This document shows, in pieces, positions 1,667-45,028 of a stretch of 64,000 nt of DNA. Numbering within the stretch: position 1 is the stretch's first letter; each line of letters begins with the position of its first letter. A model generated the notes under the pieces. The model did no database searches. It saw only the letters and a program-made list of their open reading frames with translations, and was not told where the DNA came from. A program made the position numbers and the translations under genes. The DNA comes from Thermovibrio guaymasensis. GTDB taxonomy: Bacteria; Aquificota; Aquificia; Desulfurobacteriales; Desulfurobacteriaceae. The DNA lies in contig NZ_RBIE01000001.1 of assembly GCF_003633715.1 (NCBI RefSeq), positions 853,331 to 917,330 on the forward strand. The letters run 5' to 3'.

Positions 1667-3412
1667 ATGGCAAACAGAGTAGTAGTTGACCCAATTACGA
1701 GAATTGAGGGTCATTTAAGGATAGAGGTCGTTCCAGAAAATGGTTTTATAAAAGACGCTTACTCTTCCGCTCAGATGTGGAGGGGTATTGAAGTTATCCT
1801 TCAAGGAAGGGACCCAGACGACGCGTGGATGTTTGCACAGAGGATCTGTGGAGTTTGTACAACAGTCCACGCCATAGCTTCCGTTAGGTCTGTGGAGAAC
1901 GCACTACAACTTGAAGTCCCCTACAACGCTCAGATGGTTAGAAACATCATCATCGCAGCCCACGCCCTCCACGACCACATCGTTCACTTCTACCACCTTT
2001 CAGCCCTTGACTGGGTTGACGTTGTTTCAGCTTTAAAGGCAGACCCACACAAGGCTGCAAAGATTGCTGAAAGCTATCAAAACTGGAAGTTAAACGGTGC
2101 AGCAGTATTTAAGGCTGTTCAGGATAAACTCAAGAAGTTCGTAAAGAGTGGTCAGCTTGGCCCGTTTGCTAACGGTTACTGGGGCCACCCAGCAATGAAA
2201 CTACCACCAGAAGTTAACCTAATTGCCGTAACCCACTACCTCCAAGCCCTTGATTACCAAAGGAAGGCAGACCAAGCCATTGCAATCCTCGGTGGAAAGA
2301 ACCCACACATCCAAAACCTTGCAGTAGGTGGCGTTTCAACTGCAATTAACCCTGACAACGAAGCAACCCTCAACATGGAAAGACTCTACTACATCAAGCA
2401 ACTCCTTGAGGAAGTTAGGGACTTCGTTCACAACTGTTACGTACCAGACGTTATCGCAATAGCCGCCTTCTACAAAGAGTGGCTCAAGTACGGTAGGGGT
2501 GTTGATAACTACCTTGCAGTTCCTGACCTCCCACAGGACACAAAGGGAGAGACCTTTGACATCTACGGTGGAACTATAATAGGAGGAGACCTTTCAACAG
2601 TTAAACCGATTAAGAGCTTTAACGACAGGTACTTCATAGATAACGTTGCTGAGAACATTACTCACTCCTGGTACAGAGGTAGCTGGACGAGACATCCATG
2701 GGATGAGGAGACAGTTCCAGAGTACACAGACATGCCAGGGGGCTACGTCGATCCTCAAGGCAAATACTCATGGGCAAAAGCTCCAAGGTTTAAACAAGGG
2801 AACGACTACATTCCAATGCAGGTTGGTCCACTAGCACAAGTCCTTGTAAACTACGCCCTCGGACACAAGCTTACAAGGAAGTACGTTGATAGTGCACTTG
2901 AGCAGCTTAAGAGCGTCCTATCACTCCTTGGTGAGAACTCTGACGGCGTTGACATCAACGCCCTTCAATCAACACCAGGAAGACACCTTGCAAGGGCCCT
3001 TAGAGCTCAGGTTCTTTCAGACCTTGCCCTCAAACAGTGGGAGCAACTTGTTGACAACATTGGCCGTGGAGACCTTGAAATCTATAACCCACCAACCTAT
3101 CCCAAAGGAGAAGTTAAGGGATGCGGCTTTCACGAAGCTCCAAGGGGAACTCTATCCCACTGGATTGTCATTGAAAACGGAAAGATTAAGAACTATCAGG
3201 CTGTTGTTCCTTCAACTTGGAACGCTTCACCTATGGACGACAAAGGACAGCACGGTCCGTATGAAGCTTCACTGATAGGAAATCCAATTGCCGATCCAGA
3301 AAAGCCACTTGAGGTTCTCAGAACTGTTCACTCATTTGACCCATGTATCGCATGTGCGGTTCACATGATCGACCCTGAAGGTGAAGAAATAGTTAAAGTA
3401 AAGGCTCTTTAA
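1667..3412 (+). CDS. hydB: [NiFe] hydrogenase large (catalytic) subunit
   Basis: Carries the Ni-Fe(CN)2CO active site and oxidises H2. The two ligand motifs are intact: RICGVC (C61, C64) near the N-terminus and DPCIACAVH (C560, C563, H566) near the end. The 15 residues after H566 form the peptide normally removed by the maturation protease, which is encoded two genes downstream. All ligands are Cys codons, so it is not a [NiFeSe] enzyme. The SD GGGGAGG lies just before the ATG. It has no signal of its own and is expected to be exported with HydA through Tat. Confidence 0.97.
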   Translation: MANRVVVDPITRIEGHLRIEVVPENGFIKDAYSSAQMWRGIEVILQGRDPDDAWMFAQRICGVCTTVHAIASVRSVENALQLEVPYNAQMVRNIIIAAHALHDHIVHFYHLSALDWVDVVSALKADPHKAAKIAESYQNWKLNGAAVFKAVQDKLKKFVKSGQLGPFANGYWGHPAMKLPPEVNLIAVTHYLQALDYQRKADQAIAILGGKNPHIQNLAVGGVSTAINPDNEATLNMERLYYIKQLLEEVRDFVHNCYVPDVIAIAAFYKEWLKYGRGVDNYLAVPDLPQDTKGETFDIYGGTIIGGDLSTVKPIKSFNDRYFIDNVAENITHSWYRGSWTRHPWDEETVPEYTDMPGGYVDPQGKYSWAKAPRFKQGNDYIPMQVGPLAQVLVNYALGHKLTRKYVDSALEQLKSVLSLLGENSDGVDINALQSTPGRHLARALRAQVLSDLALKQWEQLVDNIGRGDLEIYNPPTYPKGEVKGCGFHEAPRGTLSHWIVIENGKIKNYQAVVPSTWNASPMDDKGQHGPYEASLIGNPIADPEKPLEVLRTVHSFDPCIACAVHMIDPEGEEIVKVKAL

Positions 3413-3437: not shown

Positions 3438-3461
3438 CTAAAGCCAATGAGGAGGGAAAAA

Positions 3462-4109
3462 ATGGCAATTTACGAGAAGAAATACGTATGGAGTATCCTT
3501 CTGAGGCTCTTCCACTGGACTTTTGCCCTATCAATATTTACCCTTGTAGTTACAGGCCTCTACATACACTGGCCCTGGACGAATACTTGGCTTGAAAGTA
3601 GCCATCAGTTCACAATGGCCATTATGAGGTGGATACACTTTGTGGCTGGTATGTTCTTTACATGTGCAGTCTTAGCAAGGCTCTACCTCTGGTTCTTCGG
3701 GAACAAGTACGAGAGAGTTTGGGACTTTTTACCGATTAACGGTAGGAATATAAAGAACCTCTTTTCAACCCTCCTTTACTACGCTTACCTTACGGACCAT
3801 CACGAGGAGAGACTGGGCCACAACGCTCTAGCAGGAACCGCTTACTTCTTCACCCTAATCCTTGCAGTTATACAGTTCATCACCGGCCTCTACCTCCTCT
3901 ACCCTGAAAATAACTTCTTCGTCTCCCTTGGAAGTGCAATGTTTGGAACACAGCAGGAGGCAAGGTTCATCCACTACATCCTCAACTGGTACTTTGCTTG
4001 GTTCGCCCTAGTTCACATCTACATAGTAGTCTGGAACGACATAAAGAACCCCGAAGGACTTATCTCTTCAATTTTTGACGGTTACAAGTTCCACAAGAAA
4101 GAAAGTTAA
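3462..4109 (+). CDS. hydC: Hydrogenase cytochrome b subunit
   Basis: Di-heme membrane subunit that transfers electrons from HydAB to the quinone pool. The 215 residues contain four strongly hydrophobic segments and the conserved histidines (LLRLFHW, RWIHFVAG, GHNALAG, ALVHIYIV) that ligate the hemes in the Wolinella HydC/HyaC family. The ATG at 3462 is chosen over one 15 bases upstream because GGAGGG ends 5 bases before it and the product then starts MAIYEKKY. Part of the hydABC transcription unit. Confidence 0.93.
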   Translation: MAIYEKKYVWSILLRLFHWTFALSIFTLVVTGLYIHWPWTNTWLESSHQFTMAIMRWIHFVAGMFFTCAVLARLYLWFFGNKYERVWDFLPINGRNIKNLFSTLLYYAYLTDHHEERLGHNALAGTAYFFTLILAVIQFITGLYLLYPENNFFVSLGSAMFGTQQEARFIHYILNWYFAWFALVHIYIVVWNDIKNPEGLISSIFDGYKFHKKES

Positions 4110-4131
4110 AAACAACTCAAGAAAGAAAGCT

Positions 4132-4165
4132 AAAGGGGGAGTTTATCTCCCCCTTTATTAATTTT
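4132..4165 (+). terminator. Terminator-like hairpin after hydC
   Basis: A perfect 10-bp stem AAAGGGGGAG/CTCCCCCTTT (4132-4141 and 4147-4156) with a 5-base loop, followed by ATTAATTTT. It fits an intrinsic terminator but lies inside the hyd/hyp gene run, so it probably attenuates read-through into the protease and hyp genes. Confidence 0.65.
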
Positions 4166-4174
4166 GGAGGAAAG

Positions 4175-4708
4175 ATGGAGAAAATTGGCCTAATGGGAGT
4201 TGGAAACGTCCTTTTAAAGGACGAAGGATTCGGAGTTAAACTCCTCTACATACTAAAAGCCAAGTATGAGTTTCCTGAAAACGTTATCCTTATTGATGGA
4301 GGAACTGCAGGGATTTTCCTCTCCCCCGAAATTGACTACCTTGACAAACTCTTAATTATTGACGTAGTTAAAGCTGAAGGAAAGCCTGGAGAAATAAAGG
4401 TATACAACAAAGAGGATTTCTTCATAGATAAATTACCTCTCAAGCTCTCTCCTCACCAGTTAGGCCTTCAGGAAGTTTTACTTTTAAACGAGATAAAGGG
4501 AACTTGCCCAAAGGAAATTAAGTTAATCGGGATAATTCCAAAGTCCGTTGAAACCGGAACAGAGTTAACTCCCGAACTTGAAGAGAGACTGGCTGAAGTA
4601 GAAAAAATGGTAATTAATGTATTGAGCGATTGGGGAGTAAGGCCAAAATTAAAGGAGAAACCTGAAAACCCGGAAATTTGGTGGGAAAGGAAAGTAAAGG
4701 AGGCTTAA
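4175..4708 (+). CDS. hydD: Hydrogenase maturation endopeptidase (HyaD/HybD family)
   Basis: Cleaves the C-terminal peptide of the hydrogenase large subunit after nickel insertion. The family signature GVGNVLLKDEGFGV is at the N-terminus (its Glu is a Ni ligand). LIIDVV supplies the expected Asp and SPHQLGLQE the His. It is 177 residues, slightly long because of a Pro/Lys-rich tail (EKPENPEIWWERKV). SD GGAGG lies before the ATG. Its stop abuts the hypC start (TAA then ATG). Its substrate is presumably HydB of the same operon. Confidence 0.93.
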   Translation: MEKIGLMGVGNVLLKDEGFGVKLLYILKAKYEFPENVILIDGGTAGIFLSPEIDYLDKLLIIDVVKAEGKPGEIKVYNKEDFFIDKLPLKLSPHQLGLQEVLLLNEIKGTCPKEIKLIGIIPKSVETGTELTPELEERLAEVEKMVINVLSDWGVRPKLKEKPENPEIWWERKVKEA

Positions 4709-4945
4709 ATGTGTGTAGGCGTTCCGATGAAAATCGTTGAAATCAACTATCCAATGGCAGTTGCCGAAGCAAAGGGAGTAAGGAGGACAATTAGCCTAAT
4801 GCTCCTTCCCGAAGGAGAGGTGAAAGAGGGAGATTACGTTATGGTCCACGTGGGAAACGCAATTGAAAAGATAGACCAGGAAGAGGCTAAGGAGATATGG
4901 AAGGCGTTGGATGAGGTATTGGAAGCCCTTGAGGAGGAAGGTTAA
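4709..4945 (+). CDS. hypC: Hydrogenase assembly chaperone HypC
   Basis: A 78-residue HypC/HupF-family chaperone that with HypD carries the Fe(CN)2CO unit and keeps the large subunit open for metal insertion. The essential N-terminal Cys is present (MCVGVP; the usual form is MCLAIP), followed by the small beta-barrel with GDYVMVHVG. It begins immediately after the protease stop and abuts hypA. Confidence 0.93.
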   Translation: MCVGVPMKIVEINYPMAVAEAKGVRRTISLMLLPEGEVKEGDYVMVHVGNAIEKIDQEEAKEIWKALDEVLEALEEEG

Positions 4946-5296
4946 ATGCATGAAACCTCAATAGCCATGGGGCTTCTAAATTCCCTAGAAGAACTGGCAG
5001 AGAGGGAAAAGGCAAAGAGAGTAGTCAAAGTAAAAGTTAAAATCGGAAAGCTATCGGGAATAGTTGTTGACTCTTTTGTTTTCGCCTTTAACGCACTAAA
5101 GGAACAAAGCCAAAAGCTAAAAGAAACAGAACTTGTAGTTGAAGAAGTCCCAATAACCTATAGGTGCAAGGACTGTAACCATACATTCCAAACTGAAAGC
5201 GTCTTCTTTCCCGAATGTCCTAAGTGCGGCTCTTTAAAGCTGGAACTCATATCAGGAGAGGAACTTGAAGTAGTCAACGCCGAGTTAGAGGTATAG
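4946..5296 (+). CDS. hypA: Hydrogenase nickel incorporation protein HypA
   Basis: Nickel chaperone working with HypB. The N-terminal MHETSIAMGLL supplies the Ni-binding His2 and Glu3. Two CxxC pairs (CKDC and CPKC) form the structural zinc site around residues 74-94. The length (116 residues) is normal. It starts on the base after the hypC stop. Confidence 0.95.
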   Translation: MHETSIAMGLLNSLEELAEREKAKRVVKVKVKIGKLSGIVVDSFVFAFNALKEQSQKLKETELVVEEVPITYRCKDCNHTFQTESVFFPECPKCGSLKLELISGEELEVVNAELEV

Positions 5297-5298
5297 GC

Positions 5299-5991
5299 AT
5301 GATAGTTAAAGACATATTCAACGGAAGTTTCGCAAGCTACTACGAGAAAGTTATAAATAGGCTTTCCAGTCCCCTATACGTTAATAGGTGGAGAAGGAGC
5401 TTGGTAAGAGGAGCACTAGCCCTTAAACCTGAACCTGAGGTCGTAGTAGACTTTTGTTCAGGAGCCGGAAACGTAGGTGAGTTCCTACTCCAAGAAGTTC
5501 CCGAGTGTAAACTCATTAACTGCGACATAAGTTTAAAGCTCCTTAAAATGGCAAAGGAAAGGATGGGAAGTAGGGCCTACAACGTTTGCTCAGACAACAG
5601 GTTTTTTCCCCTAAAAGGAAACAGTATAGACATCCTATTTTCCTCCTTCTGCGTAAGGAACTCTCCACAGATTGAGCTAACGGTAAGAGAGGCAAAGAGA
5701 TGTCTAAAGAAAGGAGGTATCTGGGCAGTCCTTGACTTTTTCAGGGTAAAGGAGAGGAACTTCTGTACTTCAGCAAACGAAGCGATTTTTAAGTCTTTCA
5801 TGGAGCTAAACAAGTTCGTCTCAAAGGAGAACAGGAAAGCCATTGATTACCTGTTTGAATCAATAGAAAAGTTTATGACAGTTAATGAGTTTAAAGAGCT
5901 CCTCTTTGAAGAGGGTTTTGAAGTTGCTGAGGTGAAGAACTTCATGGGTGGAATAGCATCAACAGTAATTGGGATAAAAAGGGAGGTATAA
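5299..5991 (+). CDS. Class I SAM-dependent methyltransferase of unknown substrate
   Basis: A 230-residue Rossmann methyltransferase. Motif I is VVDFCSGAGNVGEF (about residues 49-62), the acidic ribose-binding Asp is in LINCDIS, and the post-motif RNSPQIELTVREAKRCLKKGG resembles the UbiE/COQ5 and methyltransferase-11 families. It lies between hypA and hypB with 2-base and 1-base gaps, so it is certainly co-transcribed with hydrogenase maturation genes. No methylation step is known in [NiFe] maturation. It could act on quinone, a metal carrier or an unrelated substrate; function unassigned. Confidence 0.75.
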   Translation: MIVKDIFNGSFASYYEKVINRLSSPLYVNRWRRSLVRGALALKPEPEVVVDFCSGAGNVGEFLLQEVPECKLINCDISLKLLKMAKERMGSRAYNVCSDNRFFPLKGNSIDILFSSFCVRNSPQIELTVREAKRCLKKGGIWAVLDFFRVKERNFCTSANEAIFKSFMELNKFVSKENRKAIDYLFESIEKFMTVNEFKELLFEEGFEVAEVKNFMGGIASTVIGIKREV

Positions 5992-5992
5992 A

Positions 5993-6751
5993 ATGTGTGA
6001 CGTATGCGGTTGCGGAGAACACAACCACGAAAGCGAAAACCTCTTTAAAGTCTCTGATGAAACCGGAAGGAAGAACGTAGAAATCAAGAAGAATCTACTG
6101 AGTAAAAATGACCAGGTTGCAATGCACAACAAGGAGCACTGGGATAGAGACGGGGTTTTAGTCATAAATCTAATCAGCTCACCAGGTTCAGGAAAAACAA
6201 CCCTCCTTGAAAGGACAATTGAAGCCCTAAAGGATGAGTTCAAAATAGGAGTACTTGAGGGAGACATTGAAACTGAGAGGGATGCAGAGAGGGTAAGGGC
6301 TAAAGGAGCCGCTGCTGTTCAGCTAACAACCGGTGGAGCTTGCCACCTGGAGGCCCCCCTTGTCCACAAAGGATACCACGCCCTTACAAAACAGATGGGA
6401 GGAGCTCCCGACATCCTCTTTATTGAAAACGTAGGAAACCTCGTATGTCCATCTTCCTTCTACTTGGGAGAGGACGTAAGAGTAGTCTTAATTTCCGTTC
6501 CAGAAGGAGCAGATAAGCCTGCCAAATATCCAAAGGCCTTTAAGACTTCTCAGGTATTTATAATCACAAAAACAGACCTACTTCCATACTTTGACTTTGA
6601 CGTAAAGAAAGTAAAGGAAGAAGCCCTATCCCTCAATCCGAAACTTAAAGTATTTACGGTTTCATCTAAAACCGGTGAAGGAATTGACCAGTGGATAGAT
6701 TTCCTCAGGGAAAAGGTCAAGGAGAAGAAAGGAGCTCTTCAGGAGAAGTAG
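5993..6751 (+). CDS. hypB: Hydrogenase nickel incorporation GTPase HypB
   Basis: SIMIBI-class GTPase that delivers nickel with HypA. The N-terminus MCDVCGCGEHNHE has the high-affinity Ni motif CxxCGC. The P-loop is SSPGSGKTT (about residue 62), switch regions include LEGDIETERD, and GGACHLE carries the conserved Cys-His metal site at the dimer interface. NKxD is represented by TKTD. At 252 residues it is typical. hypD, hypE and hypF are not in this window. Confidence 0.95.
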   Translation: MCDVCGCGEHNHESENLFKVSDETGRKNVEIKKNLLSKNDQVAMHNKEHWDRDGVLVINLISSPGSGKTTLLERTIEALKDEFKIGVLEGDIETERDAERVRAKGAAAVQLTTGGACHLEAPLVHKGYHALTKQMGGAPDILFIENVGNLVCPSSFYLGEDVRVVLISVPEGADKPAKYPKAFKTSQVFIITKTDLLPYFDFDVKKVKEEALSLNPKLKVFTVSSKTGEGIDQWIDFLREKVKEKKGALQEK

Positions 6752-6771
6752 GGCCTTTGGCCCTTATTTTG
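6750..6771 (+). terminator. Intrinsic terminator of the hyd-hyp operon
   Basis: AGGGCC/GGCCCT stem with a TTT loop followed by TATTTTG. It overlaps the hypB stop codon. Confidence 0.65.
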
Positions 6772-9311: not shown

Positions 9312-9941
9312 CTACTTTAACGCTTCTTCAAGGTTATACTCAACCTGAAGCTGAAAAGTTAAAGTGTCGTTTCTTACAGATTTGGGGATAGGGGGGAAAG
9401 CTGAACGCCTTATGGCCAAGCAAGTTGCCTCCTCTAAAATCCTCTGGCCGAAGAGGGGTTTACACTCAACCACTTTACCTCTCCTATCAAGGGTAAACCT
9501 AACCATAACCGGCCCTTCTATTCCTTCCTCCAGGGCTTCTAAAGGGTAGAAGATGTTTTCTTCAATAGCCCTCCTCACTGCCTCAACGTAGTCTGCAGGA
9601 AGGTTGCCATGAAGGGGCTTTAGTCCACCCCTCTCCTTTTCTTTAACAACCTCCCTCTTAACTTCCTTTTTGGGAGCTCCCTTAAGGGGCTTTTTAGACG
9701 TAACATTTGGCTGAGGTAACTTATTAACTTTCCTCCTTTCTTCCTTTACTCTCTTTCTACCCTTCTTCCTCTCTACTTTAACCTCTACACTCCTTTTGTG
9801 GGGTTTAATTAGGGAGATCTCAATTACCCTATTAACTTCCTTTAGAGGAGGAGTTAAAATTTGAGGAAGCGCTTTTATGAGGAGAAACTCAAGGAGAGCT
9901 GAAAAGACAAGTGCAATTAAGTACCTAACGGGAGCTCCCAT
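9312..9941 (-). CDS. tonB: TonB-family energy transducer
   Basis: Couples proton motive force to outer-membrane transport. An N-terminal membrane anchor (RYLIALVFSALLEFLLI) is followed by a Lys/Arg/Pro-rich periplasmic linker (about 50-110) and a TonB C-terminal domain (FYPLEALEEGIEGPVMVRFT and following). The start at 9941 is preferred over 9989 because GGAGGAG and AGGAAGGAG lie immediately upstream, and the longer frame would begin inside exbD with an Arg-rich extension. It overlaps exbD by 17 bases. Confidence 0.87.
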   Translation of the reverse strand: MGAPVRYLIALVFSALLEFLLIKALPQILTPPLKEVNRVIEISLIKPHKRSVEVKVERKKGRKRVKEERRKVNKLPQPNVTSKKPLKGAPKKEVKREVVKEKERGGLKPLHGNLPADYVEAVRRAIEENIFYPLEALEEGIEGPVMVRFTLDRRGKVVECKPLFGQRILEEATCLAIRRSAFPPIPKSVRNDTLTFQLQVEYNLEEALK

Positions 9942-10362
9942 TCTCCTTCCTCTCCTCCTCTGCAAGGAGGCCGACCGAGTTAATTCCAACTTTGTTTACA
10001 GCATCAAGGACTCTAACAAGGGACTGAACAGAGGCATCCCTATCTGCATCAATCGCCACTGATAGGTTTGGATTCTGTCTTTTAAAGCCCTTTAAAAGCC
10101 TCACAAGTTCGTCAAAGGTTAAAGGATTATTCCCGTAGTAGATAGAACCGTCCTTCTTAACCGTAATAGTTATAACCTTACTTTTTGGATGGAAGGAACT
10201 CTTTTGAAGGGTCTTTGGCGGATTGGTCTTAACTGCAAGGCCTGGAATTATGCTACCTGCAATTAGGACGAAGAAGGCAAGGAGAAAGAGCATAACGTCA
10301 ACCATAGGAACTATAATGAGTTCAGGCTTTTCACTGCAGGAATCCTCCCTAAACTTAAACAC
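9925..10362 (-). CDS. exbD: Biopolymer transport protein ExbD/TolR
   Basis: Proton-channel subunit of the TonB complex. One transmembrane helix (VDVMLFLLAFFVLIAG, about residues 22-37) carries the conserved Asp (PMVDVM). The periplasmic domain contains ITVKKDGSIYYGNNPL and the DRDASVQSLVRVLD region typical of ExbD. GTG start with GAGGAG upstream. Normal length at 145 residues. Confidence 0.9.
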   Translation of the reverse strand: MFKFREDSCSEKPELIIVPMVDVMLFLLAFFVLIAGSIIPGLAVKTNPPKTLQKSSFHPKSKVITITVKKDGSIYYGNNPLTFDELVRLLKGFKRQNPNLSVAIDADRDASVQSLVRVLDAVNKVGINSVGLLAEEERKENGSSR

Positions 10363-10422
10363 TTCAAAACTCCTCTCAGTTTGATATAAATTAATTATAA
10401 TCTCAAAATATCCGGAGGAAGC
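10363..10422. promoter_or_regulatory. Divergent exbD / exbB control region
   Basis: Sixty AT-rich bases between two divergent genes. The symmetric ATTATAAT at about 10394-10401 could act as a -10 element in either direction. No convincing -35 hexamer accompanies it on the plus strand, so the exact promoters are not defined. Confidence 0.35.
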
Positions 10423-10920
10423 GTGTTCTTAAACATAGAAATTGCCCACAAACTGGTCTTCTACATCCTTTTTCTCTTCCTATTTGCCGCAACTACAGTG
10501 TTCATTGAGAGGCTTTTATACTTCTTCTTTACATTTCCAACGGAAAAGAAGTTAATAAAGAAAGAAGTTGAAAAACAGGACGAAATCACAGCCGAAGTTC
10601 TCTACCACTCCTACGCAGAAAAAACAGAGAGGGGAAAAGGAGTCTTAATGTTCGTTATTACAGCGTCTCCCCTTATGGGGCTACTGGGAACAGTTTTAGG
10701 GATAATGAACTCCTTCTTAACAATGGCAGAAAGGGGAGTTTCAGATATAGCTGCAGTTAGTAAGGGAATAGCGTTTGCTCTTGAAGCAACAGCCCTTGGA
10801 ATTGTAGTTTCAGTAATTTCCCTCTTTTACTACTACGCTGTAAACGGACTCTCAAAGAAAGCCAAGGAAGAGCTAAAGAAGGCAGTCCTTGAAACAATCA
10901 AGTTAAAGGGAGAGGATTAA
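10423..10920 (+). CDS. exbB: ExbB/TolQ/MotA-family proton channel protein
   Basis: Pentameric proton-channel partner of ExbD. The 165 residues contain three hydrophobic segments: LVFYILFLFLFAATTVFIE, the signature region ITASPLMGLLGTVLGIMNSF and the last helix ATALGIVVSVISLFYYYAV. It is short compared with E. coli ExbB (244), but short ExbBs are common outside Proteobacteria. GTG start with CCGGAGG upstream. It is divergent from its partners exbD-tonB, an unusual arrangement. It converges on gatB with a 4-base overlap. Confidence 0.85.
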   Translation: MFLNIEIAHKLVFYILFLFLFAATTVFIERLLYFFFTFPTEKKLIKKEVEKQDEITAEVLYHSYAEKTERGKGVLMFVITASPLMGLLGTVLGIMNSFLTMAERGVSDIAAVSKGIAFALEATALGIVVSVISLFYYYAVNGLSKKAKEELKKAVLETIKLKGED

Positions 10921-12493: not shown

Positions 12494-14440
12494 GTGAAAA
12501 GGCTCTTATGTACCCTCTTTCTTATTTTAACTTTACTGAACGTTAACGGAAGGGCTTCTGAAAGTTACAAGGACTCCCTCCTCCCACCATTTGCAACAAC
12601 AGTTTACGATAGAAACGGGAAGGTAATAGGGTTCTTTTATAGGAACGAGTTTAGACTCTACGCACCTTACAGGGAAATTCCGAGAAAACTCGTTTACGCT
12701 GTAATAACGGCAGAGGATGAAAGGTTCTTTAAACACAAGGGAATTGACCCATTAGGAATAGTAAGGGCTGCAATTAAAGACATCACAACGGGGAAAATAG
12801 TCCAAGGGGGAAGTACTATAACCCAGCAGCTTGCAAAGATGGTTTACCTCTCTCCAGAGAGAACCCTTGAGAGGAAGTTAAAGGAGTTGGCACTGGCAAG
12901 AAGGCTTGAGGAAAAATTAACGAAGCAAGAGATATTGGAGCTCTACCTAAACTACGTCTACCTCTCAAACGGAGCTTACGGCGTAAAGGCAGCAAGCTGG
13001 GTCCTCTTTGGTAAAGAGGACCTATCTGAGCTAACAACCGCCCAATGTGCTCTACTTGCCGGAATAATAAGGGGACCAGAGTACTACAACCCCTTTAAAC
13101 ACCCAGAGAGGGCCTTGGCAAGAAGGAACTTCATTCTTAAGAGAATGTATGAAAACGGTTACATAACGGCGGATGAGCTAAAGGGGGCCCTTTCTGAACC
13201 CTTAACCCCTCTTAAAAGGCCGAACAGACCCAGAACAGGCGGTTACGAACTTGACTTTGTAAAGTTTGAGCTCCTTAGGAAGGGGATTTTAACTCCAAAG
13301 GAGCTCTTTAGCGGCGGATACAAAGTACTGACAACGATTGACGAAGATATTCAGAACTACGCCCAAAAGGTACTTTCAGATTACCAGGAGAAGTACTCTA
13401 ACTTGAGGAAATTAGACGACCTTCAGTGTGCAGGAATGGCAATAAACAAAAGGGGAGAAGTCCTTTTCATAGTAGGAGGCTCAGACTACAGTAAAACGAA
13501 ATTAAACAGGGCCTTTCAGTCTTTAAGACCTATCGGTTCAACGGCAAAACCCTTTACTTACTTAACTGCCTTTCAAAAGGGATGGTCTCCTTTAGACTTT
13601 ATATCAAATCAACCTATTGAGATGCCAATGGATAAATTTGACCCTAAAACTGGAGAGAGGGTGTGGTGGAGGCCAGAGAACTATGAAAAACGCTTTTCTC
13701 CCTTTATGACTTTAAGAGAAGCCCTCATGCACTCTGTAAACGTTGCAACCCTCCATCTTGCAATGAACTTCCCACAGGACGTCAGGAGGAACCTTATAAA
13801 ATTTAGACTGATAAAGAAAGAGGATTCTTTTAACCTCTCCTACGTTTTAGGAAGCTTCTCCTCAAACCTATACAGGATTGTCAGAGCTTACTCAGGACTT
13901 CAGGACAACGGGATACTTAAAGAGCCCTTTGTAATTAAAAAGGTTGTCAACTTTAAAGGAAAGACAGTTTACAGAGGTTACCCTACGCTTAGGAAAGTGG
14001 CAGACCCCCAGAACGTCCAGATACTCCGCTCAATCCTAGAAGATGTAGTTAAGAGAGGAACTGCTGCAAGTATTTCCTACTTGACAAAATACTTTGACGT
14101 AGCTGGAAAAACCGGAACGACGAACGACTACAGGGATACCTACTTTACTGGTTTCACAACCTCCTTCGTTATGAGCGTATGGTTTGGAAGGGACAGCTAT
14201 AAAACTATTTGGAGAGGTGCCACAGGAGGAGGTGTCGCTGCTCCACCTTGGGGTAAAATTGCTATGGAAATCTGTAAGAAGTACGGGTGTGGAAAGTTCA
14301 CTCCAACGTACGAGGATATTGTGAAGAGTTATCCACCGCCAACCCATTTCCCTGAGAAGGAAATGGAGGAGATCTACTACGATCAGCTAATTAACTCCCT
14401 CGGTGAGGAAGTTACAGAAACTGAAGAGGAGGTCAACTAA
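12494..14440 (+). CDS. Class A penicillin-binding protein (PBP1A type)
   Basis: Bifunctional peptidoglycan glycosyltransferase/transpeptidase. The GT51 domain (about 50-215) has [17 protein letters not shown] with the catalytic Glu, [11 protein letters not shown] and the [18 protein letters not shown] region. The transpeptidase domain has STAK (Ser349), the SVN triad in MHSVNVA, and KTGTT. The N-terminus ([22 protein letters not shown]) looks more like a cleavable signal than the usual cytoplasmic tail plus anchor. GTG start. gyrA follows with a one-base gap, its SD lying inside this gene's end. Confidence 0.93.
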
Positions 14441-14441
14441 A

Positions 14442-19440
<4,999 letters not shown>

Positions 19441-43834: not shown

Positions 43835-44010
43835 GTGAACTACTCCTCATTTCAATGAGGAGTTTCCCGCTTCAACGAGGGCGTTAGCTCTCTCCACGGG
43901 CGTAAGCTCGGGCCGTTCCAGCCCTACCACTCGTATGGTGAGCAACCCCTTTAACTGTTTTAGTCCTTCCTTTAGCAGGTTCAGGGGTGCATTGTAATCC
44001 CTATCGTGTT
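43835..44010 (-). ncRNA. Putative omega RNA (reRNA) of TnpB
   Basis: In IS605 elements the guide RNA overlaps the 3' end of tnpB and runs through the right end. Here the tnpB tail contains several short complementary stretches (GGGCTGG/GGCCC, ACGCCCGTGGAGAG, GCGGGAAACTCC) and ends in the terminal hairpin and TAGTTCAC. The guide would be the bases following on the minus strand (43834 downward). The 5' limit is a guess. Confidence 0.45.
43842..43863. repeat. Right-end hairpin of the IS element
   Basis: A perfect 10-bp inverted repeat ACTCCTCATT/AATGAGGAGT with a 2-base loop, overlapping the tnpB stop codon. Subterminal palindromes are what TnpA recognises on single-stranded DNA. Confidence 0.8.
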
Positions 44011-45028
44011 CTGCTCCACACTTGGGACACTTCCACTTCCTATCAGACAACTTGAGGTTCTCGTTCTTGTATCCACACACAGAGTAGAGTTTTGATGAGG
44101 GATAAAACAGGTTTATCTTGATGAGCTTCCTACCGTAGAGCTTCGCTTTATACTCCAGATAAGAGATAAACCTTCTCCAGCTTGCGTCTGCTATGTGTTT
44201 GGAAAAGTTGCTGTTTTTGAGTAGTCCCTTGACGTTTAAATCCTCTACTATCACGGCTTGGTTATCGCCGATTATTTTCTTGCTTAGCTTATGGAGAAAA
44301 TCGTTCCTCTGATTTACTATCTTTTCGTGTAACTTTGCTATCCTCCTTTGGAGCTTGAGATATTTCTTGCTCCCTTTTACCTTCCTTGATAGCTTCCTTT
44401 GGAGCTTTTGGAGTTTCTCTTCTGTTTTTAGTAAGTGTCTTGGGTTTTCTATTTTCTCTCCCGTTGATAAGGTACAGAAGTGGGTAAGTCCTACATCTAT
44501 CGCTACTACATTCTCCGTTTTCGAAAGTGGTTCTATTTCCCTGTCAACGAGAACATTAAGATAGAACTTACCCGATGGAAGTTTTGTTATGGAAACGCTC
44601 CTTACTTTTCCTTCTATCTTCCTGTGCTTTTTGAACTTTATTGGTGTTTTGAGTTTTGGTATTTTGATTTTGTTTCCCTCTATGCGAAAGTGTTGTGGTA
44701 TTGATATGCTGTTTACACTCTTTTTGCTCTTGAATTTGGGAAATTTTGCAAGTCCTTTAAAGAAGTTCTTAAAAGCTCTATCAAGCCACTTTACCGCTTC
44801 TTGAAGTGATTGAGTGTTTGCTTCTTTGAGAAAAGGGGATTCTCCTTTAAGTTTTGGAAGTAGTTTTTTGTATTCGTAGTAGTTCCACTTCTTACCTTCT
44901 TTCTCGTAGTTTTCTTTTGCTATCTCAAGGAGCTTATTGTATACAAACCTGCAGTGTCCTATCTGGCGGTTTAGAAACTCTACCTGCTCTTTCGTAGGAT
45001 AAAGCCTGAATCTGTAAACGTAGAGCAT
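43847..45028 (-). CDS. tnpB: RNA-guided nuclease TnpB (IS605 OrfB), altered zinc finger
   Basis: A 393-residue TnpB. N-terminal wedge/REC (YRFRLYPTKEQVEFLNRQIGHCRFVYNKLLE), RuvC motifs with catalytic Asp178 (AIDVGLTHF), Glu262 (VEDLNV) and Asp344 (HDRDYNAPLN). The zinc ribbon reads KLYSVCGY ... CPKC: the first of four cysteines is Tyr315 (TAC at 44086-44084; one base from TGC), leaving C318, C334 and C337. The usual NAA after HDRD is NAP. It starts one base after the tnpA stop. Nuclease function is therefore uncertain. Confidence 0.92.
   Translation of the reverse strand: MLYVYRFRLYPTKEQVEFLNRQIGHCRFVYNKLLEIAKENYEKEGKKWNYYEYKKLLPKLKGESPFLKEANTQSLQEAVKWLDRAFKNFFKGLAKFPKFKSKKSVNSISIPQHFRIEGNKIKIPKLKTPIKFKKHRKIEGKVRSVSITKLPSGKFYLNVLVDREIEPLSKTENVVAIDVGLTHFCTLSTGEKIENPRHLLKTEEKLQKLQRKLSRKVKGSKKYLKLQRRIAKLHEKIVNQRNDFLHKLSKKIIGDNQAVIVEDLNVKGLLKNSNFSKHIADASWRRFISYLEYKAKLYGRKLIKINLFYPSSKLYSVCGYKNENLKLSDRKWKCPKCGAEHDRDYNAPLNLLKEGLKQLKGLLTIRVVGLERPELTPVERANALVEAGNSSLK

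Follow-up and report, generated by a model that had tools for sequence, protein, structure and literature searches.

A divergent UbiE/COQ5-type methyltransferase encoded between hypA and hypB in Desulfurobacteriaceae is a probable quinone methyltransferase

The gene located between hypA and hypB in Thermovibrio guaymasensis, designated MT-H, was found to encode a divergent protein of the UbiE/COQ5 superfamily which is probably a quinone C-methyltransferase, most likely acting on demethylmenaquinone and co-expressed with a quinone-reducing hydrogenase. The window (the whole stretch of 64,000 nucleotides that was analysed) contains the complete operon, the neighbours of MT-H being assigned by their best NCBIfam models, with hypA and hydB missing the respective cut-offs. 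The features are as follows.

78-365: gene for an ArsR-type regulator, shortly before the hydrogenase operon
558-1637, + strand: hydA, small subunit of the [NiFe]-hydrogenase, carrying a Tat signal (TIGR00391, 484.8 bits; cut-off 179.5)
1667-3412, + strand: hydB, large subunit of the [NiFe]-hydrogenase (775.5 bits with NF007778, the best model, below the cut-off of 969)
3447-4109, + strand: hydC, b-type cytochrome subunit, the quinone side of the hydrogenase (TIGR02125, 158.0 bits; cut-off 121.5)
4131-4157, + strand: GGGGGAG/CTCCCCC hairpin of 11 pairs between hydC and hupD (folding)
4175-4708, + strand: hupD, hydrogenase maturation protease (TIGR00072, 134.8 bits, above cut-off)
4709-4945, + strand: hypC chaperone (TIGR00074, 92.5 bits; cut-off 48)
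4946-5296, + strand: hypA, nickel metallochaperone (TIGR00100, 87.7 bits, just below the cut-off of 88.1)
5299-5991, + strand: MT-H, UbiE/COQ5-type SAM-dependent methyltransferase of 230 aa (ORF from ATG to TAA; PF01209)
5993-6751, + strand: hypB, nickel-insertion GTPase (TIGR00073, 282.3 bits; cut-off 121.2)
6750-6764, + strand: hairpin resembling a terminator, at the hypB end (folding scan)

The Tat signal of hydA scored 27.5 bits with TIGR01409 (cut-off 16.7), and hupD additionally matched TIGR00140 with 141.3 bits, below the cut-off of that model. The gene order is hydABC-hupD-hypC-hypA-MT-H-hypB, with 2 bases between the hypA stop (5296) and the MT-H start (5299) and a single base between the end of MT-H (5991) and hypB (5993); the ORF and neighbour calls reproduced exactly the coordinates and 1-2-base gaps that had been given by an earlier, sequence-only reading of this DNA. 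As start and stop codons nearly touch, MT-H is probably co-transcribed and translationally coupled with hypA and hypB. The hairpin between hydC and hupD was seen in all 14 operons folded, including that of the window and those of genus g7 described below, and it may set the ratio of structural to maturation genes. Together with the terminator-like site after hypB, it places MT-H inside the maturation segment hupD-hypB, although the folding energy of the hypB-end hairpin was ordinary compared with shuffled sequences (z -0.8) and the terminator-like sites of the region (11, against 8.1 expected by chance) were not rarer in shuffles. The ArsR-type gene at 78-365 may be the regulator of the hydrogenase operon. 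Elsewhere in the window, gyrA (14403-18161) was seen to contain an intein that includes a homing-endonuclease domain of the LAGLIDADG type, and an IS605-type OrfB/TnpB gene is located at 43847-45028 on the - strand.

Assignment of MT-H to the superfamily was provided by PF01209 (Ubie_methyltran), which was matched with 96.1 bits (E 2.6e-27; gathering score 20.1) over the full length of the protein, residues 3-227 aligning to positions 9-233 of the 233-position profile. The best NCBIfam model was TIGR01934 (MenG_MenH_UbiE), but the score of 114.9 bits lies under the curated cut-off of 158.35, and membership of that subfamily was not obtained. Full-length UbiE-like proteins from genomes G043 and G026 likewise fell below this cut-off (125.8 and 112.3 bits), which is therefore strict for this phylum. 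When an AlphaFold model of MT-H (pLDDT 88.4) was used in a Foldseek search, the top three chains were all of yeast Coq5 (E 6e-17), with the next protein at 8e-13. VIA also returned Coq5 (PDB 4obw) as the best match, with a Z score of 23.5 and 26% identity; nine other class I methyltransferase entries followed less than 1 Z unit behind, at 14-16% identity, and it is therefore only the Foldseek result and the sequence identity that set Coq5 apart. The predicted structure of MT-H has the UbiE/COQ5 family fold, with Coq5 as the closest solved structure.

The catalytic Arg-Asn pair of the family was retained. R120-N121 is invariant in 15 of 15 aligned MT-H proteins, as the equivalent pair is in all eight reference UbiE sequences, and corresponds by alignment to R144-N145 of Escherichia coli UbiE and R201-N202 of yeast Coq5. 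(The alignment comprised 15 of the 16 orthologues, L013 being omitted as a near copy of L012; Coq5 numbering is the phmmer alignment position plus 50, which fits both the 61-307 construct of PMC5289526 and the chain numbers of the structure.) In the available text of PMC5289526, Coq5 Arg201 is the proposed general base, acting through a water. By analogy, Arg120 of MT-H, the counterpart of this residue, would activate the quinol together with Asn121, and MT-H would catalyse the donation of a methyl group from SAM to a ring carbon of demethylmenaquinol, the form with the reduced ring. Seven further residues (F7, Y15, N20, W31, D51, D76, and Y184) are invariant in the 15 MT-H sequences and agree with the eight references. 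MT-H thus shares with UbiE, MenG, and COQ5 the full-length PF01209 match, the class I SAM fold, the invariant Arg-Asn pair, and several reference residues, but differs from them in its TIGR01934 score, in its location within a hydrogenase maturation operon, and in a number of positions (E16, A56, N58, L81, M168, and I182 among them), with M168 and I182 standing in place of P192 and Y205 of E. coli UbiE. Motif I reads GAGN rather than GTGD, and three cysteines, C53, C75, and C118, are invariant in the 15 MT-H proteins and lineage-specific, as these columns hold one cysteine in total in the other 49 alignment rows (at C53, in one of the eight references). In the AlphaFold model they are placed at or beside strand ends, which we take to border the SAM pocket in this fold. 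Comparison of the window copy with that of G001 gave signs of purifying selection (pN 0.13, pS 0.76, the latter saturated). MT-H resembles a diverged version of an established type of enzyme more than it does a novel kind of machinery.

Desulfurobacteriaceae are heat-loving bacteria of the deep sea, and it was in this family alone that MT-H orthologues were detected, where 16 of the 136 Aquificota genomes searched carried one; the 16 matches had E values <1e-110, and a score gap running from 1e-112 to 1e-26 set them apart from the next one. Conservation of the hypA-methyltransferase-hypB order across Aquificota had been suggested as a check by the sequence-only reading, and within Desulfurobacteriaceae it was borne out, hypB following MT-H directly in 16/16 cases and hypA preceding it in the 15/15 loci reaching that far (L019 starts at a contig end and offers no hypA test). 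Gaps ranged from -4 to +3 bases between hypA and MT-H (n=15) and from -8 to +18 bases between MT-H and hypB (n=16), and both the placement and the near-zero gaps span six genera, a regularity beyond what chance would give. The hydABC genes were found upstream in the window and in all ten sufficiently long MT-H loci (11 loci were looked at, of which L105, on the same contig as L019, is cut). MT-H was absent from 6 of the 22 family genomes, namely the four of genus g7 and two incomplete ones, G015 (89% complete, hypB not found) and G021 (83% complete). A pattern scan of a contig collection gave nine relatives among 52 matches, all bearing the name Desulfurobacteriaceae, Thermovibrio, or Desulfurobacterium, with patterns strict enough that remoter relatives are possible; a plasmid collection, searched for closer relatives, yielded seven records at 24.9-28.3% identity, of which those with gene names were called ubiE. 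In T. ammonificans, HydABC is followed by the five genes HupD, HypC, HypA, MT-H, and HypB. The genes Theam_1124-1128 after hynABC are listed as Hyp factors in the accessible portion of the published genome analysis of this species (PMC5441870), so that MT-H was apparently counted among them. No description of a menaquinone methyltransferase within a hyp operon was found in the open-access literature.

This conserved placement bears on whether MT-H is tied to the hydrogenase at all. It could be a housekeeping quinone methyltransferase with the same chemistry but no hydrogenase coupling, its place in the hyp operon being incidental and inherited. The confinement of all 16 orthologues to one family agrees with this, since the position may then reflect a single insertion, as does the retention of the operon without MT-H in genus g7. 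However, the placement and near-zero gaps were kept in 15/15 loci from six genera, and the hydrogenase of the operon possesses a quinone-side cytochrome b subunit, leaving an incidental location unlikely, if still quite conceivable. That the gene is a mere passenger, as suggested earlier, is unlikely in view of its conserved placement, although the linkage could still be incidental. Under the preferred interpretation, that of a quinone methyltransferase co-expressed with the hydrogenase, methylated menaquinone would be supplied together with HydABC, the cytochrome b subunit of which would reduce it.

An alternative was that MT-H is a new hydrogenase accessory, which would act while nickel is inserted and methylate the large subunit, a maturation protein, or a ligand of the metal. 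Its operon partners on both sides belong to the HypA-HypF system, and being tightly embedded between two nickel genes, together with the invariant cysteines near the predicted SAM pocket, where a metal site is conceivable, would be in keeping with such a role. To our knowledge, none of the established Hyp steps relies on a class I SAM methyltransferase. A comparison was offered by genus g7, in which hydA, hydB, and hydC were present at 74-76, 76-78, and 72-74% identity. A Hyp factor would be expected wherever the same hydrogenase operon is present; in 3/3 g7 genomes examined (G009, G014, and G017), hupD-hypC-hypA-hypB is contiguous and lacks MT-H. Neither an MT-H match nor, in the TIGR01934 search, a full-length UbiE-like gene was found in any of the four g7 genomes. 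As hydABC-hupD-hypC-hypA-hypB stands without MT-H in this genus, and as UbiE/COQ5 is indicated by the sequence, the fold, and the catalytic residues alike, the accessory role was set aside as the main reading and is considered very unlikely. The sequence-only reading had offered three options, of which the quinone methyltransferase gained from the superfamily, the Arg-Asn pair, and the distribution with prenyltransferase type, whereas the Hyp accessory was weakened by the g7 operon. Also observed in G014 (L148, about 9905-10634) were short repeated coding-like stretches, to all appearance a CRISPR array translated as if it were protein-coding.

Genus g7 was also distinguished by its prenyltransferase. 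One PF01040 prenyltransferase gene was present per genome, and in 15 of the 16 MT-H genomes it matched at E 7e-57 to 6e-62 and was of the TIGR01475 type, with MqnP as the nearest relative; none was found in the remaining MT-H genome, G011, which is 83% complete. The g7 gene differs, its nearest models being MenA (E 2e-27 to 6e-31, 4/4 genomes). The model scans covered G000 (T. guaymasensis), G005, G014, and G022, and in them the 'MenA-like' genes were below all MenA cut-offs, the cut-offs of the MqnP models being missed as well. Orthologues of the G000 prenyltransferase were found in 6/6 MT-H genomes and 0/3 g7 genomes searched. In a related family (f2; G022 and G023), a MenA-like gene is present and MT-H absent; against the pattern, the incomplete genomes G015 and G021 carry a TIGR01475-type gene without a found MT-H. 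Since g7 has kept the operon without MT-H and has a different prenyltransferase, MT-H tracks the quinone pathway and not the hydrogenase, although this co-variation comes from one genus and may go back to a single transition within the family.

Adjoining the MenA-like gene in all four g7 genomes is a HemN-like radical-SAM gene, the product of which scored 394.7 bits with NF006385 in G014 (cut-off 355). The motifs GxxFxxxYxGGGT and QxTxYPLx, which mark the MenK/MqnK group of menaquinone methyltransferases in the available text of PMC10320005, were present in 4/4 g7 proteins, which on these two motifs classify as MenK-like class C; YFxxxRxE occurs with Lys for Arg and the 4Fe-4S motif with Tyr for Phe. 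The MenK-like clade, according to the same text, also includes a heme chaperone. Orthologues of this gene were found in 0/18 of the other family genomes, where the best matches were HemN/HemW-like genes of 25-34% identity. Class C radical-SAM methyltransferases of the MenK/MqnK/MenK2 type, although unrelated to MT-H in fold and chemistry, would be the apparent functional counterpart in the genus that lacks it. The members described so far act on position 7 or 8 of the ring and are not known to methylate C2. The G014 locus (C1, about 1.374-1.378 Mb; L172/L186) comprises the MenA-like gene, the MenK-like gene, and a 'methanogenesis marker 16'-like gene that scored below cut-off.

A second UbiE-like gene, MT-C, was identified in 14 of the 16 MT-H genomes, T. 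guaymasensis included. MT-C is of similar length to MT-H, with 27-32% identity, and belongs to the same superfamily, but the G000 copy passes the TIGR01934 cut-off with 170.3 bits (as does that of G002), and, unlike MT-H, it showed no adjacent hyp genes in G000, G002, or G010, the three genomes inspected for this. Furthermore, Arg-His replaces the Arg-Asn of MT-H in 14/14 MT-C proteins and in 19/19 other Aquificota rows grouping with them. A weak MT-C-like match in G015 was taken for BioC, as it lies beside ispG and folB (read by eye); the same neighbours flank a BioC-like gene in G014, which scored 144.7 bits with the BioC model (cut-off 184.95). Three of the six partial TIGR01934 matches in G014 were scanned and rejected as BioC-like, trans-aconitate-type, and arsenite/general methyltransferase-like, each covering between under half and two thirds of the UbiE profile.

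Phylogenetic analysis was carried out on 64 rows, the tree being unrooted. MT-H formed a single group (100/100) on a long branch of 2.1 substitutions per site. Eight reference UbiE and eight canonical Aquificota copies grouped together (98/93) apart from it, and MT-C joined the Arg-His copies (94/84), with MT-H in neither group; a clade of MT-H with MT-C was not rejected (p-AU 0.186). Left out of the tree were L130 (very long branch), BioC_L003, Roseomonas_MT, Rsullae_MT, L027, L030, L131 (too short), and L004, L070, and L096 (wrong frames), while the Nonomuraea and Paracoccus rows were kept, read in frame. Lying outside the canonical UbiE clade, MT-H was classed as a PF01209 protein that works like UbiE but stands outside the MenG/UbiE subfamily. 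The sequence-only reading had reserved the verdict of a normal quinone enzyme for a protein placed firmly within MenG/UbiE with no other copy in the genome; the placement obtained and the presence of MT-C in T. guaymasensis spoke otherwise. With the TIGR01934 cut-off missed and MT-C in 14/16 genomes, the name 'MenG' is not proven for MT-H, and MT-C alone could carry out the demethylmenaquinone step.

The long branch, the altered motif I, and the second UbiE-like gene would also suit an MT-H that acts on another small molecule, for instance to give a quinone variant with an S-methyl or a second ring methyl group, or on a metabolite of some unrelated kind. This was judged highly improbable, as MT-H retains the canonical Arg-Asn pair, unlike the MT-C group, and is the sole full-length candidate in Desulfurobacterium thermolithotrophum (G005), which has no MT-C and in which MT-H was the only full-length TIGR01934 match. 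PMC12724263, a 2025 paper on another D. thermolithotrophum strain, states with reference to L'Haridon 2006 that MK-7H6 is the predominant quinone in every other species of Desulfurobacterium. If menaquinone is made by the D. thermolithotrophum type strain, methylation of demethylmenaquinone would by elimination fall to MT-H.

Futalosine-pathway genes were present, PF02621 being matched in 58/61 genomes and MqnE-type genes exceeding the cut-off in 10/11. One PF02621 gene was found in each of the 19 Desulfurobacteriaceae genomes with a match, against two (three in one genome) in genomes of families f3 and f4, suggesting that MqnA or MqnD may be replaced in Desulfurobacteriaceae. Two tandem MqnE-type radical-SAM genes were observed in T. 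guaymasensis (L158, 7185-9396; G000:C1, about 732-734 kb) and at L150 and L151, preceded by a small gene that is regulator-like by eye; both copies exceed the MqnE cut-off in G000 and G005. Among 27 UbiE-like rows from other Aquificota families (loci L020-L033 and L083-L095), Arg-His replaces Arg-Asn in 19. Aquificae make methionaquinone, the biosynthetic enzymes of which are described as unknown in the available text of PMC13386864, and these Arg-His proteins are possible candidates for its methylation step.

A more elaborate proposal is that MT-H performs hydrogenase-dedicated tailoring, whereby, beside a housekeeping MT-C, it would be made with HydABC and, once H2 oxidation is turned on, move the pool towards a methylated menaquinone of lower potential or of otherwise distinct character. 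C53, C75, and C118 would then form a metal or redox switch tying methylation to nickel or redox state, and g7 would use its unrelated radical-SAM enzyme instead. Such an arrangement is regarded as distinctly unlikely.

If the preferred assignment of MT-H as a demethylmenaquinone-type methyltransferase is right, a respiratory-quinone enzyme would be made as part of a hydrogenase maturation operon, an unusual connection between H2 oxidation and quinone chemistry. D. thermolithotrophum and T. ammonificans would then have in MT-H a specific candidate for their methylation step, and Desulfurobacteriaceae would be a family in which UbiE-type methylation appears to have been exchanged for a radical-SAM one. 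Both points bear on genome-based quinone prediction, which takes a missing menG/ubiE to mean demethylmenaquinone and which, according to PMC13386864, differs from measurement in 39 species.
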